This document shows positions 1-36,075 of a stretch of 46,642 bases of DNA, piece after piece (within the stretch, counting starts at the first letter, position 1; every line of letters begins with the position of its first letter). The translations under genes and the position numbers were made by a program. The DNA lies in NCBI GenBank assembly GCA_035505375.1, contig DATJQV010000080.1, forward strand, positions 1 through 46,642. The letters run 5' to 3'. This DNA is from a bacterium (GTDB lineage Bacteria > Hydrothermota > Tepidihabitantia > Tepidihabitantales > Tepidihabitantaceae). The notes below the pieces were generated by a model. The model had not been told where the DNA came from and made no database searches. It worked only from the letters and a program-made list of their open reading frames with translations.

Positions 1-1497
1 GGGCCGAGGCCGGTGAACCCTGTTCAAAGTACCTCTCGTCAAGAGCAACCTGCGGCCCCTGCGTTATCGCAGCCCACAGCGCGGAATTGGGCGCGCGCTC
101 GAACAGCCACTCATACCTACCCCCGTCCTCGGCGTAGTCGAAGGCCGCCAACTTCTCGGAAGCGTCGGACGAGAAGCCTGTGAAAGACATCCATGCCTTA
201 GCAAGGCGCTCGTTATCGATGATTCGATACGCGTCCGGGCCATACTGGTAATGGTCGGCCCTGAAGTTTTTGGGCTTGTGTTCCTTCATGTTGTCGAACT
301 CCATGTCCTTACGCTGGTAGTACCAGCGGGGTGACATGCCATTGAACTGCCGCTGGAGGACGCGTTGAGTGCGGCTGTTGGATCTGAGATTGCGCGCGGA
401 CATTCGGTTCTGATTGTTGCTAGCGGTGACGACGTCCTCCAGGATGCCCTCATCTGGAGTGATTATGAACCGAACAGGCACAAGACAGTGGGTATCGAAA
501 CGCTGTCTGCTAGCGTCATCATCCATGTCCTTGTAGGCGTGGTGAAGAGATATGACAGTCTGACAGCCGTTGATGATCTGCGGCTTGTGTAGCGTTGCGT
601 GGCAGGGTTGCGCGGCTCCCTTGGGCAAGCTGAGGGAATTGCATGAGAAGGTTACGCCGTTATTGAGAAGGTGGAAGCGCTCCTGTCCCTTTCTGTCCTG
701 CAGGGTTTCGATTATCTGCCTATTGATGGATGTCTTCTTGCCTAGATAGAACCTCACGTTCAGGTCGAAGAGCGCCAGCTTATGTTGGTCGAATATCCTG
801 AATATCTCTCGGGCTGGCACGAGGGCATAGCCCCATTTCTTCACCTGTCGATACGAATCTGGCTCGACATCGAGCCTGATCTTGTCCGGACGTTCCGGTG
901 ACAGCAACGACATGCCGAGTTCCGAGGCAATTCGCTGGTAGTCGACCACACGAACTTCGTACTTAGGTGCGGGCCACTTAGAGCGCAGTTCCTCGAGCTT
1001 TTCCTTCGCAGCAGGCGTGAGTGTGCCGAACACGGCCAATACGGAGTCGAGCCTGAACGTCCCACCATCGCGCTCAGCGGCCTCTCTGCCTGCCCGAAAG
1101 CGGTTCCGCGCCTCTTGAGCGCAGGGGTTCCCTCTAGCATTGCCTTCGTCATCGCTAAGGAACGTCAAGACATCTTCTATCTCGTTGATGACGTCGGGTC
1201 CGTACGTGACCGGACTGACTACACTTGTGTCGTCGATATCCGGTAGTTTGCACTGATAGGCCACGACGCGCTCTTCCGTGATGTCATAGAAGTCGATCTT
1301 CTGGTCCTTTGAGCGGTCACACACGCGGAGTCTGTCCGGCGCGATATTCTCAAGCTGCTGACCTATGTAGTACACGAATAGTTTCTGGAAATCGTCTCCT
1401 AAGTCAGGTCCTTCTTCGGATAGCGTTTCAAGGGTGCGTCTGAGCAAACCGACGATGTCCACATACTTGTAGTTGTCCCCTATGGCTTTCTTCATGG
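1..1497 (-). CDS. AIPR-family protein (abortive infection / phage resistance type), 3' end cut by window edge
   Basis: I translated the minus strand from ATG at 1497 and it stays open for 499 codons to the window edge, so the C-terminus is missing. The family call rests on the AIPR core at about residues 235-320: a stretch reading LFDLNVRFYLG, then INRQIIETLQ, then FHLLNNGVTFSC, and IINGCQTVISL. The N-terminal part has a restriction-fold-like half motif, D68 followed by QCK (Q81-K83), which resembles the ID...QxK signature seen at the front of many AIPR proteins. The start is preceded by AAGGAG about 10 nt upstream and lies 28 nt after the stop of the CBS-HEPN gene, so the two are one operon. 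AIPR proteins were first noticed in phage-resistance loci and are thought to act on nucleic acid; no activity can be proved from this sequence. Family call is firm; defence role is inference. Confidence 0.85.
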
Positions 1498-1525
1498 TGT
1501 GCGTGCTCCTTGTGTATCAACGGCG

Positions 1526-2605
1526 CTACGTCGCGCCCAACTTCTGGAGGGTAGAGAGGAATCCAGAGAACTCCCTCAACACTGTCAGATCGTCCCGGGT
1601 GATTCCGTCCGGGTCGAAGTGCATCACGTCGTTCCGAATATCCCTGACCCTGTCCAGTCTTTCTATGAATGCCGCGCGGTCGACTCTAAGCTGAAGCCTC
1701 TCCCATTTCCTCGGGTCGGCTAGGACGCGAACGTACTCGCCTATCGTGAGGTCTGCGACCTTCTTTACCTCTCGGCCGGAGTCAGTGTTGAGTTTGCTCG
1801 ATTTCAGCTCCTCAATTGAGAAGTGCTTCAGAAGTATTCGGCGGATGTGGTTCTCAATCTGTGATAGCAGGAGGAATGGCTCGGCCAATTGGTGGAACTG
1901 TCTGCTGATGTCGCTGGCAGTGATGATTCCCGTGATCCTTCTGTCACGACCCTTGACAAGCACGTATTCATGCTGCGCAATCGTCTGCATGGCAGTCAGT
2001 AGCGAGTCGTCCTCACTGACCTCATGGTGAGTTTCCATCGCCTCTCGGACCAACAAGGTCGGCAGTCCAAGCGCCAGCCGCGATCCGATGGAGGCCCAGC
2101 TTATTACACCCTTGACGTCTCGTTCGCTGGTCATGACAGGCAGCTGTGAGTAGTCGTTGGACATCATGATGGTCACGGCTTCTGCTATCGGTGCGTCTGG
2201 CTTGACCGAAATCGGTGCGTGCTGAGCTGCCTCAAGCCTGCTTATTCGGTAGGTCGGGTCGGCATACTCGTTAGGCGTCCCGGCGGAGTTTGTGGCGTCC
2301 GGGCGCGTCTCCTCCTGCGCCAAGTGCGAGTCAGAGATGCCATCCTTCCGAGATGTCACCTTGGCGGGTTCTGCAGGTAGGAGCTGCACGGTAGAGTCGA
2401 GATATGCTGCTTCGAAGTCAGGGTCGGTACGCAGGCCTGCTTGGGTGAGACCGGTACGAACCGCGAACACGACCCAGTAACCTCGACGTTGCTGGCCGTA
2501 CCATTCCAGCAATTCCCTTACGGTTACGCGTACGGCCGCACCGTGATTGACATCAGTGGCCACAGCTTTGAGTCGTTCATGTCCGTATTGAGTACTCATT
2601 GGCAT
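1526..2605 (-). CDS. CBS-domain pair fused to a HEPN-like domain
   Basis: 359 residues in three parts. Residues 1-80 form a small domain (VRELLEWYGQQRRGYW followed by a TDPDFEAAYLD stretch) that I do not recognise by name. Residues about 126-180 and 187-236 are two CBS motifs (QLPVM...GVISW and YVLVKGRDRRITGIITASDI), which in this superfamily bind adenine nucleotides or similar ligands. Residues about 240-359 are helical and carry RDIRNDVMHF, in which R324-N-D-V-M-H329 fits the Rx4-6H motif of HEPN ribonucleases. The protein is therefore built like a nucleotide-sensing switch joined to an RNase-type domain. It is the first gene of an operon with the AIPR gene. The start at 2605 lacks a clear Shine-Dalgarno; a second ATG lies two codons downstream. 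Function in defence or stress is inferred from neighbours and domains only. Confidence 0.8.
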   Translation of the reverse strand: MPMSTQYGHERLKAVATDVNHGAAVRVTVRELLEWYGQQRRGYWVVFAVRTGLTQAGLRTDPDFEAAYLDSTVQLLPAEPAKVTSRKDGISDSHLAQEETRPDATNSAGTPNEYADPTYRISRLEAAQHAPISVKPDAPIAEAVTIMMSNDYSQLPVMTSERDVKGVISWASIGSRLALGLPTLLVREAMETHHEVSEDDSLLTAMQTIAQHEYVLVKGRDRRITGIITASDISRQFHQLAEPFLLLSQIENHIRRILLKHFSIEELKSSKLNTDSGREVKKVADLTIGEYVRVLADPRKWERLQLRVDRAAFIERLDRVRDIRNDVMHFDPDGITRDDLTVLREFSGFLSTLQKLGAT

Positions 2606-2691
2606 GGGGAATCGATCGGATGACTACGCGGGCACACTGTCTATCTCGTTTCCATCAAGGCCGGGAAAGGACCGACTTCCATTGACGGTGA

Positions 2692-2719
2692 ATTGTAGAC
2701 GGGCACAGCCCGCTGTCAA
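2692..2719 (-). promoter_or_regulatory. Promoter of the CBS-HEPN/AIPR operon
   Basis: Minus strand TTGACA (2719-2714), 16-bp spacer, TACAAT (2697-2692). The predicted start of transcription near 2685 gives a leader of about 80 nt before the CBS-HEPN gene. The 12-bp-period array begins about 40 bp upstream of the -35. Confidence 0.65.
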
Positions 2720-2759
2720 GCCGAGAGCCGCGGGGGCGGGCGGGGCGGGAGCCTGGCTC

Positions 2760-3082
2760 GGACACTGACCGGAAAATGAAGCTCGGGATAAGGCTCGGGA
2801 TTAGGCCCGGGATTAGATTCCGGAGTAAGCTCGGGAGTAGACCTGACGATTGCTCCGGCAAAAGACCCGACCATAGGCTCTACTTGTGCATGGGCCTAAG
2901 GCTCGACCATAGGCGGTACGATAGCTGGTGCAGTAAACTCGGCAATAGGCGGAAGGATAGCCGGTACAGAAGGCAGGGCAGTAGGCGGTGGATTAGGTGG
3001 GCGAGAAGGCTCAGGCTTAGGCGCGACAATTGGCGGGGCAATAGGCGGGGATTTAGGTGTGAGGATAGGCCCGGGTAACCGT
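2760..3082. repeat. Array A: degenerate 12-bp-period tandem array
   Basis: Successive 12-mers can be cut with little slippage, for example ggctcgggatta, ggcggtacgata, ggcggaaggata, ggcagggcagta, ggcggtggatta, ggcggggcaata, ggcggggattta. Units diverge but keep a GG(C/T) start and a TA end. Because 12 is a multiple of 3, several frames stay open across it, which explains the small ORFs here; I do not regard them as genes. The array sits in the 681-bp gene-free stretch 2606-3286, upstream of the AIPR-operon promoter. It is followed by an acgaccccc-ggcagggaat tail that is also found after array C. Between 3105 and 3240 I see nothing else. Confidence 0.7.
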
Positions 3083-3239
3083 CCCCCCCACGACCCCCGG
3101 GCAGGGAATACGTAACTTACGCGATGTCGTTTTGACCAGAAACGCCCAAAATCCGCAATTCCTACATGACGGCAATATGCATGGCCGAGCAGACGTGAGA
3201 TGCAGAAACCAGACCGACGCGCCGCGGTCCACGTGAGAA

Positions 3240-8942: not shown

Positions 8943-11561
8943 TTAGGGTGAGGACTGCGAGCCCGGCCTGGAGAAGAGGCGCTGCCAGCGCGGGTCGCCG
9001 TGCAGTGCGTTGAAGTCGGAATCAGTCCGGGCATCGCGGAGCAACGCCGGGGCGCGGTCCTGAAGCAGCTCCAGCAACTCGAAGGCCTTGTCCTTGTCGG
9101 CAGCCTTGGCGCACGCACAAGCCCAGTTGAAGAGCGCCTCGTAGTAGTCGGGTTTGACTTCGATGGCGCGCTGGAACCTGGCGTACGCTTCCCCGGCTGT
9201 CGTTCGGGCTTCGCCTCCGGTCTGGAGCAGAGCCAGATCGCCGAGTGCGACGCCCCAGTTGCTGAACGCCACGTGGAAGTCGGGCTTGAGTTCCGTGGCA
9301 CGCTGGTACTTGTCGCAGGCCTCCCTCAATGTGGCACGGGCTTCGTCGCCGGTCTGGAACGAGGCCAGGTGGGCGAGTGCGCTGCCCCAGTTGTTGAACG
9401 CCGCGTCGAAGTCAGGCCTTTGTTCGGTGGCGCTCTGGAACCTGGCGCAGGCCTCTTCGAACGTGGCCCTGACTTCATCGCCGGTCTGGAACAGGGCCAG
9501 GTCATAGAGCGCGTTGCCCCAGTTGTTGAACGCCTCGTGGAGGTCGGGCTTGAGTTCGGTAGCTCGCTGGAACCTGGCACAGGCGTCCTTGAAGGTGGCC
9601 CTGGCCTCATCGCCGGTCTGCTGCTTGGCCAACTCGTAAAGGGCGCGGCCCCAGTTATTGAATGCCTCGTATTTGTCAGGCTTGATTTCGGTGGCGCGCT
9701 GGAACCGGGCGCAGGCCTCCTTGAATGTGGCCACGGCCTCGCCGCCGGACAGGAGCCGGGCCAGGTCATAGAGCGCGTTTCCCCAGTAGTTGAACGCCAC
9801 GTGGAAGTCGGGCTTGATCTCGGTAGCACGCTGGTACTTGTCGCAGGCCTCCCGCAATGTGGCCTTGACTTCGTCGCCGGTCTGGAGACGGGCAAGGTCA
9901 AAGAGCGCGTTGCCCCAGTTGTCGAAGGCCGCGTGCAAGTCGGGTCTGAGTTCGGTGGCGCGTTGCAACCGGGCACAGGCCTCCTTGAATGTGGCTCTGG
10001 CCTCGTCGCCGGTCTGGAGCAGGCCCAGGTCATAAAGTGCATTGCCCCAGTAGTTGAATGCCGTGTAGATGTCTGGTTTGAGTTCGGTCGCGCGCCGGAA
10101 CTTGTCGCAGGCCTCCGTGAATGTAGCCCTGGCTTCATCGTCGGTCTGGAGCAGTGCCGATTCGTAGAGTGCGCGGCCCCAGGTGTTGAACGCCTCAGGC
10201 TGGTCAGGCTTGATATCCGTGGCGCGCCGGAACTTGTCGCAGGTCTCGCCGAGTGCGGTCCTGGCGTCGTCGCCGGTCTGGAGCCGGGCCAGCTCGTAAA
10301 GTGCATTGCCCCAATTGTACAGCGCGCGGTGCAGGTCGGGTTTGACCTCGGCAGCGCGTTCGAACCGGGCACAGGCGTCCCGGAACAAGGCCACTGCCTC
10401 GTCGCCGGTCTGGGACCGGGCCATGTCAGCGAGTGCGACACCCCAGTCATCGAACGCATGACCAAGCGGGTCGAATGCGTCGGTTGCATCGAGCTTCCTG
10501 GCTTGCTCCAGCAGGTAGTCCAGCGCGCCCGTGTCCGCCTCGGCCCACGCTTCGCGGGCCTGTTTCACGACCGTGTCGCGCTCGATGGGCAGCTTTCCAT
10601 CTTCGCGCGGGCAGGCCGCCTCATTCCTTTCGAAGCAGTCTATCGCCGTGGCTGCCCAGTGTTTCCCCACTTCCGCAAGGTCGGTCTCCTCGACCGCGGC
10701 CACCTGTTCCAGGGTTTCACGCAGGTAGGAGAAGGGTTCCACCGTCATAGCCGAGCATTCGATGCCGAGCGCCCGTGCGAGGCGCATGAAGAACAGGTCG
10801 GCATCCTGGTTGCGTACGCAGTATGCGAGATTCGCGTCTACGCCGAACAACCCGTCCCGGACGTGTGACTTCGGTTCGGCGTCTCCGTGGAGGGTCCAGT
10901 AGAGACCGTGCGGATGCTGCCCGTGCCTGCAGAGAATGTCGAACACCGGGTCATTCTCGCCGCCGTAACCCACGACGATAAGGGTCCTGTCGTCGAGCAC
11001 GGAGTAGAGAACGCTCGCCAGCCGTGCCCTTGCCGCCCGGTCTTCTTTGATCATCTGCGTCGTGCGGAACGCCCCGCCTTGGCCGTGAAGGTGAAGTACC
11101 GCGGGGGAGATGGCCCGTGCAGGGTCAATGGTGCCGACGTTCGCAACGTCATACACGTAGTGGTTCACGTTGGCGAAGGCCAGGCCGCGCACTGCGAGAG
11201 AGTCGAAGTTGGTGGTCAGAATCCAATCGACCAGGCCGTGCTTGACCAGGCAGGCGGCGTAGAGGTGCGCCATGTTTATTCTGGCCTTGCTCAAGTACCG
11301 GTCGAGTACTGCGGCACGCTGGTTCGCGTCGAGCCCTGCCACGAAGCTCGCGTAGTCCGGCAGGCGCTCGCGGTTGAACCCCGGGAACCTGTCCGCGTAC
11401 TGGTCGAAGTTATCCATCACGATTTCCGCGGCAAGTGGGATGCCGGCTGAGCGGGAAGCACCCGCGCCCAGTAGCAGCGCAGCCTTGCGGTCCTGCTTCT
11501 CGTTGTCCCTCAGCTTCCGTGCGATGTCATCAATCGCAGCCAGGCGGCACGACTCCATCAT
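8943..11561 (-). CDS. SIR2-domain protein with long TPR-type repeat array
   Basis: About 872 residues. The N-terminal SIR2 domain (1-270) shows GAGAS at 32-36 (NAD loop), TTNFD with N118, LHLHG with H159 at the catalytic position, and VVGYGGENDPVF. From about residue 365 to 840 there are ten copies of a 44-residue unit (consensus FNNWGNALYDLA then ACARFQRATELKPD), each 132 bp, so alike in DNA that recent expansion is likely. SIR2 domains of this bacterial type are NAD-consuming enzymes in several anti-phage systems (Thoeris ThsA, DSR and others), usually fused to a sensor; a repeat array would be the sensor here. Three ATG codons stand in a row at 11564, 11561 and 11558; the second is 6 nt from the -10 box and is preferred. 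It stands alone as a transcription unit. Defence role is inference. Confidence 0.85.
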   Translation of the reverse strand: MMESCRLAAIDDIARKLRDNEKQDRKAALLLGAGASRSAGIPLAAEIVMDNFDQYADRFPGFNRERLPDYASFVAGLDANQRAAVLDRYLSKARINMAHLYAACLVKHGLVDWILTTNFDSLAVRGLAFANVNHYVYDVANVGTIDPARAISPAVLHLHGQGGAFRTTQMIKEDRAARARLASVLYSVLDDRTLIVVGYGGENDPVFDILCRHGQHPHGLYWTLHGDAEPKSHVRDGLFGVDANLAYCVRNQDADLFFMRLARALGIECSAMTVEPFSYLRETLEQVAAVEETDLAEVGKHWAATAIDCFERNEAACPREDGKLPIERDTVVKQAREAWAEADTGALDYLLEQARKLDATDAFDPLGHAFDDWGVALADMARSQTGDEAVALFRDACARFERAAEVKPDLHRALYNWGNALYELARLQTGDDARTALGETCDKFRRATDIKPDQPEAFNTWGRALYESALLQTDDEARATFTEACDKFRRATELKPDIYTAFNYWGNALYDLGLLQTGDEARATFKEACARLQRATELRPDLHAAFDNWGNALFDLARLQTGDEVKATLREACDKYQRATEIKPDFHVAFNYWGNALYDLARLLSGGEAVATFKEACARFQRATEIKPDKYEAFNNWGRALYELAKQQTGDEARATFKDACARFQRATELKPDLHEAFNNWGNALYDLALFQTGDEVRATFEEACARFQSATEQRPDFDAAFNNWGSALAHLASFQTGDEARATLREACDKYQRATELKPDFHVAFSNWGVALGDLALLQTGGEARTTAGEAYARFQRAIEVKPDYYEALFNWACACAKAADKDKAFELLELLQDRAPALLRDARTDSDFNALHGDPRWQRLFSRPGSQSSP

Positions 11562-11567
11562 CATTGG

Positions 11568-11857: not shown

Positions 11858-12250
11858 TGGAAACGGCCGGAAATGACGCTTCGGGAATCGCCTTGGGAAC
11901 CGTTCCGGGAACGGTTCGGGGGGCGGCTCTCGGAGGGACTGCTGACGTGATTAGCCGGGCGACTTCGACGGCGTATCCCAAGACGGTTCCGGCTGCGATT
12001 GGCGTATGGAATCCGGATGCGACTTGCGAATAGGTGTGGATGGTGACTTGAGATGCGACGTGCCCCGCGACTCTCAGCGTGGTTGACAGGGCTACCTGCG
12101 AAGTGACTTGCGGAGGGATTCTCAGGAGGACCTGCTGCGCGGTTTGCACAGCGACTTGGGCGGCAGGTCGTGAGGTTCCGGACTGGGTTCGGTCTGCCGG
12201 GTTGTGGCGGACTAACCTCTCCGGTTGGACGACCTTGGCACGGACATCCG
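11858..12250. repeat. Array B: degenerate 12-bp-period tandem array
   Basis: Units such as ggaaccgttccg, ggaacggttcgg, gatgcgacttgc, gaagtgacttgc, ggagggattctc, aggaggacctgc and acagcgacttgg follow each other at 12-bp steps. A core of GNGACTTG(C/G) is the commonest. Several units are self-complementary (ggaaccgttcc, ggaacggttc). The array lies in the 738-bp gene-free stretch 11562-12299. From 11597 to 11857 I see no gene that I can support, only a short open frame without family resemblance. No protein is proposed from the array's own open frames. Confidence 0.65.
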
Positions 12251-20008: not shown

Positions 20009-20036
20009 ATTGTAATTCCGGCACTGTCCGGGTCAA
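20009..20036 (-). promoter_or_regulatory. Promoter of the seven-repeat propeller gene
   Basis: Minus strand TTGACC (20036-20031), 16-bp spacer, TACAAT (20014-20009). Leader of about 170 nt to GTG at 19829. Array C begins about 20 bp upstream of the -35. Confidence 0.55.
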
Positions 20037-20055
20037 GCCGAGGGCCGCATCGGCG

Positions 20056-20352
20056 GTGCGGCTGAAACCCAGCGCCGGGATGAGCATCCTCCCAAGCGCT
20101 GGGACAAGCATCCTCACAAGCACCGGGACAAGCACCCTCACAAGCACCGGGATAAGCACCCTCACAAGCACCGGGATAAGCACCGTCCCAAGCGCCGGGA
20201 TAAGCACTCCTCCAAGCCCCTGGACAAGCACCCCTCCAAGCCCCTGGACAAGCACCCCTCCAAGCGCCGGGATAAGCACCGTCCCAAGCGCCGGGACAAG
20301 CGCCGTCATAAGCGTCGGGATAAGCACCTCCCTAAGCCCCGGGATAAGGTCC
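20056..20352. repeat. Array C: regular 12/24-bp-period tandem array
   Basis: The clearest of the four arrays. About 24 units of 12 bp: gcaccgggataa and gcgccgggataa alternate with gcaccctcacaa, gcaccgtcccaa, gcacccctccaa or gcccctggacaa, so the true unit is often 24 bp. No slippage is needed over nearly 300 bp. It lies in the 657-bp gene-free stretch 19830-20486. The tail after 20352 (acctcccccca acgacccctgggcgggaa) matches the tail of array A. From 20400 to 20486 I see nothing. The open frames through it have only 4- or 8-residue periods and are not genes in my view. Confidence 0.85.
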
Positions 20353-20486
20353 GGGGGAGACCTCCCCCCAACGACCCCTGGGCGGGAAATCAGCACTTAG
20401 CTCAACTTTCTCTTGTACAAAAACGAGGAAACCGGGTTATTACTATATGAGGACGGTCGATCGAACGTGGATTCTTGCTCTGCGGT

Positions 20487-22070
20487 CTAGCGCACGACCG
20501 TGATGGGGACTCGGGCGCTGCTGTTCCCGGCAGAGACCGAGATGAAGTAGACTCCGGCGGGAAGTGCGGAGGCGTCGAGGCTGAGCCGGTGCGAACCTGC
20601 CCTGTAAGCTTGAGGGGCGAGTTGGACGGCGACGCGGCCGGTCAGGTCGAACAGGGCGACGCGGCAGGAGGCAGGACTCCGGAGGCTGACGTTGAGGTTG
20701 AGTTGGCCGCGGACCGGGTTGGTTAGCAAGTGTAGACTCGGGACACGATCCGAAATGTCGGACATTTCGGTCATGTCCCTGCGCTCTTCGGCGATGCCGG
20801 TCTGCGGCAGGCGCGGTCTGAGCGTGCCGTCGGCGACAAGGCACATGCCGTAGAACCAGGAGCGTTCGCTGGGACTGCAACCGTCCCTCAGTTGAGCATC
20901 GAACCATTGGCGGAAGGCCTCGGCGAGCGACACGCCTTGTCCCAGCGGGGAGTAGAAGTCGCCAAAGTTGAGCATCGAGCCGGTCTTGGTCGAGCCGATT
21001 GCGCTGAGGCCGTCCGAGGTCTGAAATACGTAGCGGCCGCCGCAGTAGCCAGATTCGACGAAGCGGACGTTGGAGCAGGCAAAGAGGTCGTAGAAGCAGG
21101 CGTGCGGGTCGAGCGACGGTATCGAGGTCGCATAGAACCAGTCCATCGAGTCTTTGTGGTCGTAGTACATGGCGTGGCCGCCGGGCCAAGAGTGGGACAT
21201 AAGGGCTATCCATTGGTAGGCGGCGGAGTCGATGCGCGGCTGGTAGTCAAGGATGCGGGTCTGTTCCGAGTCGCTCACGAGCACGCGGTCGTGGTAGAGC
21301 AGACCGACATTGCTGTCCCAATCGGTCGCCCAGGGTGTCCAGTCGTCGTCGATGTAGACAAGGGCGCGGTCAGTGACCGCCAGTTGGTGGCTCCGGTATC
21401 GGTGGTTCTTGTCGAAGTAGTTCACGAGCAGCGACTCGGCGTTGCCGATTTCCGATGCGGGCAGACGCGAGACAGAGATTTCCGGGGTGATGCTACCTTC
21501 ATGGACGTCGTAGACGGAGTCCGAGCCGGGCACGAGGCTGTCGAGCGTGTCGGCGAGACGGGCCAGGCTGTCTTTCCATGTGCCGTCAAGGTCCATGAAG
21601 AAGAGGTCGCAGGGGAACTCTTCGTAGCCTTCGCCGTTGTCGCGCACGCCGTTGTCGTTCCAGTCGTCGATGAGCTGGAACCAGGCGATGGGCAGGTCGC
21701 CCACGAGCACCGCCGAAGTCATGCCGGTATGGTACTCGGCGGTCAGCAGGGCCTTGAGCGATTCGGCCGAAGTGCCGCTGACTGAGAAGACCGCGACACC
21801 CGTGGTCTCGCGTCCGAGGTCGGCGACCAGCGTGTCGAGTGACTGCTGCAGAGATGAGACGAGCGTTTCCTGGACGAAGAAGTCAACCCGCGGGCTGTCC
21901 AGCTTGCATGGGACCATCAGCGTGCTGACCCGCCACGGGCGCGGGCGCAGCGCTGCGCGCCACTCGGCGTGGGTGAGGGGCTTAGAGCTGTCCGGACTCA
22001 TCCAGCGTAGGGGCGTTACGCCTGACGTACCGGTGGAGAGAAGCAGAGTAAGCGAGAGGATGAATTGCAT
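20487..22070 (-). CDS. C25 (gingipain/caspase-fold)-like cysteine peptidase with type IX-style sorting domain
   Basis: 527 residues. After a signal peptide comes a caspase-like fold: AVLVGDLPIAWF strand, ISVSRLPAS, then IALMSHSWPGG with H293 and FYDLFACSNVRF with C332 at the positions of the catalytic His-Cys pair of C25 peptidases. SAIGSTKTGSM after them also fits gingipain-type enzymes. The last 80 residues form a sorting domain (LLTNPVRGQLNLNV...LFDLTGRVAVQL...LPAGVYFISV). It is likely a secreted surface peptidase; PorU, the type IX sortase, is a distant relative, but the tail marks this one as cargo. ATG at 22070 follows the previous gene by 3 bp with GAGGT upstream, so the two are coupled. 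Confidence 0.8.
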   Translation of the reverse strand: MQFILSLTLLLSTGTSGVTPLRWMSPDSSKPLTHAEWRAALRPRPWRVSTLMVPCKLDSPRVDFFVQETLVSSLQQSLDTLVADLGRETTGVAVFSVSGTSAESLKALLTAEYHTGMTSAVLVGDLPIAWFQLIDDWNDNGVRDNGEGYEEFPCDLFFMDLDGTWKDSLARLADTLDSLVPGSDSVYDVHEGSITPEISVSRLPASEIGNAESLLVNYFDKNHRYRSHQLAVTDRALVYIDDDWTPWATDWDSNVGLLYHDRVLVSDSEQTRILDYQPRIDSAAYQWIALMSHSWPGGHAMYYDHKDSMDWFYATSIPSLDPHACFYDLFACSNVRFVESGYCGGRYVFQTSDGLSAIGSTKTGSMLNFGDFYSPLGQGVSLAEAFRQWFDAQLRDGCSPSERSWFYGMCLVADGTLRPRLPQTGIAEERRDMTEMSDISDRVPSLHLLTNPVRGQLNLNVSLRSPASCRVALFDLTGRVAVQLAPQAYRAGSHRLSLDASALPAGVYFISVSAGNSSARVPITVVR

Positions 22071-35675: not shown

Positions 35676-35764
35676 AGCAAGCGGGAGTCGGGAGCAGCGT
35701 GTCGGGAGCGGGGAACGGACAACGGCGAGTTGAACCGGACTTCACTCGGAGTTCCCCGGGCGAC

Positions 35765-36075
35765 TGACCGCGCGGCTTGCCTTATTGCTCTCCGAATTGC
35801 TGAGCAGATTGTCTGCCCCGCTGCTTGGCGAATTGCTCTCCGGGGAGCTTGCCGGGCAATCCTCCGCGCAGCCAGCGGAAGACCCCACCGGACTGCGCCC
35901 CCCGCGGCCTTCCGAGCAGCTCGCCGATCTCCTCTCCGAATAGCCTGCCCGGCAGCATGCCGGGCTGCTGACCACGCAGCTTCGCGGATTTCTCACGGGA
36001 TAGCATACGGAGCAACCTTCGGAACTGCTTTCCGGGTAGTTCTCCAAAGAGCTTCCACAATAGCCGGGGGGATGG
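35765..36075. repeat. Array D: degenerate 12-bp-period tandem array
   Basis: Units such as ttgctctccgaa, cagctcgccgat, ctcctctccgaa, tagcctgcccgg, cagcatgccggg, cagcttcgcgga, tagcatacggag, caaccttcggaa and ctgctttccggg follow at 12-bp steps, consensus near (C/T)AGC(T/C)TNCCGGA. It lies in the 653-bp gene-free stretch 35676-36328. Before it (35680-35740) is a gggagc/gggaac-type patch. After it (36080-36280) I see only low-complexity patches and then the MarR promoter. No gene is supported. Confidence 0.65.

Follow-up and report, generated by a model that had tools for sequence, protein, structure and literature searches.

Bacterial repeats that pair with a protein partner take several described forms. 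The centromere iterons of ParR-parC and TubR-tubC are direct repeats of about one helical turn that lie upstream of a small-protein gene and are suited to cooperative assembly. REP/BIME elements with RAYT partners occur in many intergenic copies, few of them gene-linked, and their partner is a transposase (Y1/HUH); in insertion sequences (IS) with outward -35 ends, the conserved end supplies TTGAC. According to structural reports on archaeal filamentous viruses, the filaments of SIRV2, AFV1 and SFV1 have as their asymmetric unit one coat dimer together with 12 bp of A-form DNA (PMC5517147, PMC6105669), and 12-bp indels are described as common in rudi- and lipothrixviruses (PMC4390879). The 46,642-nucleotide stretch of bacterial DNA analysed here (the window) carries arrays with a period of 12 bp, designated A to D.

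The sequence-only reading of the window had stated that arrays A and C share this period, a flank, a tail and a minus-strand promoter with a 16-nucleotide spacer, and all of these shared features were confirmed. The period of array A is evident from an identity of 0.52-0.59 at lag 12/36, compared with a background near 0.3, and its refined limits, 2744-3075, fall slightly to the left of the previously stated 2760-3082. The features are as follows.

2 to 1495, minus strand: AIPR-domain protein (PF10592, E 7e-38), an incidental neighbour of array A that runs off the window.
1526 to 2605, minus strand: CBS-domain anti-phage protein (DS11; NF053863, E 1.1e-116), an incidental neighbour of array A.
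2627 to 2743, minus strand: left-end module of array A, with an outward TTGACA-N16-TACAAT promoter-like site; common to the A-type copy on contig C4 and to C89, where the unit is different.
2715 to 2731: flank GTCAAGCCGAGAGCCGC, within the left-end module of array A.
2744 to 3075, plus strand: array A, 332 bp, with ~27 12-bp units (consensus GGCgcGgcanTA) in unshifted phase.
3076 to 3155, plus strand: tail region of array A, containing ACGACCCCCGGGCAGG at 3090-3105; the likeness to the C1 and C18 copies stops at 3155.
11858 to 12164, strand not given: array B, 12-bp period, like the arrays before coat-like genes on C38 and C81.
20009 to 20048, minus strand: flank of array C, carrying a TTGACC-N16-TACAAT promoter-like site.
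20071 to 20348, plus strand: array C, with 12/24-bp units AAGCRCCGGGAT / AAGCACCCTCCC.
20349 to 20455, plus strand: tail of array C, with copies at C12 (96% identical) and C15 (94% identical).
35740 to 36064, strand not given: array D, 12-bp period, unit CTtnCCGngcaG.

The common flank, GTCAAGCCGAG(A/G)GCCGC, occupies positions 2715-2731 at array A and 20032-20048 at array C, and the common tail, ACGACCCC(C/T)GGGC(A/G)GG, positions 3090-3105 and 20371-20386, respectively. Read directly from the sequence, the minus-strand sites are TTGACA (2714-2719)-N16-TACAAT (2692-2697) at array A and TTGACC (20031-20036)-N16-TACAAT (20009-20014) at array C. A genome-wide search placed flank GTCAAGCCGAGNGCCGC and tail ACGACCCCNGGGCNGG exactly at five positions each, all ten of them at 12-bp arrays with varying neighbour genes; with one mismatch allowed, the true patterns yielded 10 and 6 matches versus 2 and 1 for their reversed controls, a likeness beyond the level set by base composition. 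The attachment of array A to a defence-like operon is incidental, because other copies of the array adjoin other genes. No counterpart of this defence pair of AIPR and DS11 CBS genes (window 2-2605) was noticed next to the PpiC-like orthologue in the stretches of the relatives that were read. Elsewhere in the window, positions 8943-11564 encode a large protein, the start of which looks SIR2-like, followed by about ten tandem repeats of 44 residues (132 bp), possibly a defence gene; an Rfam scan of the window returned two tRNAs and nothing else.

To size the array family without bias, twenty 20-kb stretches (400 kb) were picked away from known arrays. They contained 20 strong 12-bp arrays, versus none at control periods of 9, 10, 11, 13, 14 and 15 bp and a single one at 18 bp, which overlapped a 12-bp array. 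Extrapolation yields a total of ~181 arrays in the 3.6-Mb genome (95% range 111-279). Forty arrays were delimited, 21 of them in the unbiased stretches and the other 19 in the window and at selected loci. They have a median length of 292 bp and all lie clear of predicted genes, although a simple gene caller marks ~76% of the unbiased stretches as coding. Unit sequences vary among subfamilies at a constant 12-bp step, which extends the period noted for arrays A and C to the whole genome and to arrays with unrelated units. Arrays with a 12-bp period, built of further different units, are also present elsewhere in the family, in other species as well as other genera (L093 in G001, L099 and L101 in G007, L109 in G008). 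An array of ~45 units at L137 (G000:C24, 2214-2831) is roughly twice the usual length and has phase shifts near one end. Three contigs of the window's genome (G000: C1, C18 and C4) break off within an A-type array, and elements of this kind are therefore probably undercounted in short-read assemblies.

We then asked how strictly this step is kept, in a register test that allowed phase shifts. Across 67 arrays and 20,331 bases, 7,484 departures from the unit consensus were accompanied by 30 shifts, 25 of which lie within 36 bp of an array end; the remaining 5 are interior (at least 36 bp from an end), as compared with 5,721 interior departures. With so few interior shifts for so many departures, the 12-bp step seems to be maintained in register despite divergence of the units. 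These figures replace an earlier count of 0 shifts, obtained by single-phase delimitation and therefore biased. Gaps per substitution amounted to 0.025 in arrays and 0.053 in flanks, a rough comparison of non-independent pairs in which the flanks partly hold neighbouring arrays, and for these reasons we place more weight on the register test.

The regular partner of the array family, which the sequence-only reading had not named, is a gene for a small helical protein resembling viral coat proteins, found behind several arrays. In the intact relatives of array A, the tail is followed by a promoter and the coat-like gene, and at the C15 copy of the array C tail the coat-like gene likewise comes next. 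Homology search with a paralogue, rather than the arrays, as query returned 23 own-genome members of this protein family, and a family profile returned 30. In the same-genus set of 36 family genes, from loci of the own genome, G001 and G003, an array lies no more than 600 bp upstream of 24 (11/13, 6/9 and 7/14, respectively) and downstream of none, against a chance expectation of ~4.4% per gene (binomial 2e-24 for 24 of 36). This count took in 13 of the 30 own-genome matches and excluded the genes at C15, C42, C77, C89, C1 and C18, first met via arrays or array loci; C34 was kept, though known beforehand. Over all five groups, arrays lie upstream of 27 and downstream of none of 65 genes, with upstream arrays in 3/22 cases from other genera of the family and 0/7 from other families of the order. 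Arrays are thus not needed for the coat-like family, most members of which in those other genera and families lack them. The family itself was present in all 28 examined genomes of the window's order, with copy numbers from 3 to at least 31, and in 1 of 119 other genomes of the phylum; the named relatives belong, like the window's own genome, to candidate division WOR-3.

Purifying selection acts on the coat-like genes, with dN/dS of 0.03-0.31 in 12 pairs. In 18 array-gene pairs, unit likeness tracks protein likeness (Mantel r 0.61, p 5e-4; r 0.52 in the opposite orientation), a correlation that may arise through common descent. The cluster at L034 (G000:C15, 8378-12820) comprises an array, two coat-like genes, a sigma-70-like gene, a third coat-like gene and small membrane-like proteins, and may represent the entire system. 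A sigma-like gene, a coat-like gene and a short hydrophobic protein (~76-88 residues) recur together at L060, L062 and L063, and the near-identical array and coat-like gene loci L143 (C68) and L144 (C16), with dN/dS of 0.03, point to a recent duplication of the whole unit.

Single coat-like proteins matched nothing in Pfam, NCBIfam or PHROGs above the curated cut-offs. An alignment scan, however, found PF12193 (Sulf_coat_C) in 26 of 38 family members (best E 4.1e-7), and the family profile retrieved from 177,635 PDB sequences seven matches at E<=1, all of them archaeal filamentous-virus coat chains (3j9x, 6wq0, 5w7g, 3fbz, 3fbl and 6d5f, the last labelled 'Fimbrial protein' in the PDB sequence set and named SFV1 in the structure-search listing). 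The same profile singled out the coat ORF134 among 133 frames of SIRV2 (E 1.4e-7) and the coats ORF140 and ORF132 among 139 frames of AFV1, and hhalign of the family against these three coats gave 96.6% over 111 columns (E 4.9e-10). When a confident AlphaFold2 model (pLDDT 91.5) was compared by Foldseek, the eight top-ranking matches were these coats, at probability 1.00 though with E-values only down to 6.7e-3. VIA scored coats at Z 13.9, 13.0, 12.5, 12.1 and 11.0 and the first unrelated chain at 7.3, the top matches being the SIRV2, SSRV1 and AFV1 coats (Z 12.5-13.9, 111-122 residues). By profile comparison and predicted fold, the family is homologous to the coat proteins of Adnaviria. The more divergent member, the partner of A/C-type arrays, is matched by a profile from which it had been left out (E 3e-5); its model (pLDDT 90.5) has the AFV1 coat as its two best VIA matches (Z 9.9 and 9.6; next 7.7), but plain Foldseek was weak, ranking that coat 24th, and the predicted coat fold of this member is only moderately supported. 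A tblastn search of phage records with the coat-like protein gave no match, and two viral-contig scans with two queries found no close relatives. In AFV1, a weak 5-bp periodicity was seen near one genome end (L198, ~20601-20681).

A 12-bp step, a kept register, ~25 units and an upstream-only placement are the features to be expected of a footprint-phased assembly site. The array would be the cis half of a chromosomal system made of ~25 units of 12 bp, a dedicated promoter and a small helical coat-like gene. Each unit would be the footprint of one coat-like dimer bound to the array; one dimer per step would thus set ~25 dimers side by side in fixed register, and dimers so arranged would make the array a sequence-addressed assembly (nucleation) site for a coat-like protein polymerising on the chromosome, both at its own gene and, via the dispersed copies, elsewhere. 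Such polymers might serve auto-regulation, local DNA sheathing or packaging, on DNA that is perhaps A-form. On balance we lean, by little, towards arrays as register-locked assembly sites with one coat-like dimer footprint per unit, array A being a dispersed cis half. We count against this model that units show no general dyad symmetry (p<0.05 in 5 of 40, with C-type units clearly non-palindromic), that no 12-bp arrays were found in the SIRV2 and AFV1 genomes, that coat-like genes in most other genera and families go without arrays and that most arrays lack an adjacent coat-like gene; we also know of no sequence-specific binding by viral coats. A bolder version, which we hold to be possible but doubtful, would have a cellular relative of the Adnaviria coat, ancestral or domesticated, addressed by the ~180 register-locked arrays through paralogue-specific units and polymerising into DNA-sheathing filaments, perhaps on A-form DNA, either as a sequence-addressed coating machine or as a filamentous gene-transfer particle that brings its own packaging signals.

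The assembly-site model has two main rivals, selfish dispersal and ordinary regulation. According to the first, the arrays are MITE- or REP-like dispersed repeats whose period stems from the way such arrays arise, with the coat-like gene carried along as a passenger or left over from the parent element. Arrays of one subfamily align end to end at 75-95% identity (ends approximated by alignment) and were therefore copied whole; flanks included, they recur in unrelated places, so that the cassette family of the sequence-only reading is also a dispersed one. The A-type copies of contigs C1, C18 and C4 show 94-95% identity across 229-346 bases, and truncated coat-like genes lie behind C1, C18 and G003/G002 array copies. 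Of five same-genus relatives, four lack a called array at the PpiC-like gene (the one adjoining array A) in the sequence covered, and the fifth, G004, has an array of another subfamily there, a pattern that fits insertion. Mobility, as the earlier reading had proposed, is thus supported by copies and an apparently empty site; the regulatory role that it offered alongside is possible, given outward promoter-like sites at both ends of several copies. Array A itself is a solitary dispersed copy with no coat-like gene beside it, and dispersed arrays of this kind may be relics. However, no transposase was noticed among the ORFs read beside arrays, and selfish spread accounts poorly for a single period across unrelated units with no strong arrays at neighbouring periods, for a register preserved through unit divergence and for intact genes under purifying selection with arrays on their 5' side only. 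We consider selfish dispersal unlikely.

The second rival makes the arrays enhancer- or iteron-like sites for an unrelated regulator, or for a dedicated sigma factor, that controls the coat-like genes, the footprint match being coincidental. Indeed, arrays lie directly upstream of promoters, with a promoter-like site between array and gene, and sigma-70-like genes precede some coat-like paralogues. One promoter class, GCAAATC-N17-TAACTATATGA, has three exact places genome-wide, all before array-linked coat-like genes, and its reversed pattern has none. Yet the arrays stop before the promoter motif, no array accompanies the sigma-coupled genes at C3 and C52, and unit sequences differ between loci of one promoter class (C77 versus C38 and C81), which together render this explanation distinctly improbable.

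That the arrays encode four-residue-repeat proteins, as 12 being a multiple of 3 and many frames open by default might suggest, is contradicted by stops at about the expected level and by the lack of a consistently open frame across 22 arrays, and hardly deserves credence. Tandem repeats are present in most genomes, but ordinary VNTR noise is equally contradicted by the density, ~300-bp length, single period, constant register and 5' gene association of these arrays, and is just as hard to credit.

Returning to the assembly-site model, these data suggest a chromosomal DNA-coating system undescribed in the literature searched, where no paper on such arrays or on bacterial Adnaviria-like coats was found (preprints and most subscription journals lay outside the search). 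To our knowledge, it is an open question what the Adnaviria coat has as cellular relatives, and another how coat assembly on DNA starts; an order-wide bacterial coat-like family with a DNA partner stepped at exactly the coat footprint brings both within reach of tests on ordinary proteins and DNAs of 300 bp. If true, the model would also reveal a novel way of coating chromosomes at sequence-defined addresses, through orthogonal pairs of paralogue and array.

Among known systems, IS elements with outward -35 ends resemble the arrays in that a conserved array end supplies the TTGAC of an outward promoter-like site, but here the element body is the array, and no transposase was noticed nearby. 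As in REP/BIME-RAYT systems, many arrays are intergenic and few gene-linked, whereas their units are not generally palindromic and their partner is a coat-like protein instead of a transposase. With ParR-parC and TubR-tubC they share direct repeats of about one turn upstream of a small-protein gene, and they differ by ~25 units, ~180 dispersed copies and the coat fold. Unlike the Adnaviria filaments (Rudiviridae SIRV2/SSRV1, AFV1, SFV1), whose genomes searched (SIRV2 and AFV1) lack the 12-bp arrays, the family described here is chromosomal and multi-copy in 28/28 genomes examined from a single order, where sigma-70-like genes accompany some copies and arrays many; with these filaments it nonetheless shares a homologous coat fold over nearly the full length and an array step of 12 bp equal to the 12 bp of A-DNA per viral coat dimer.
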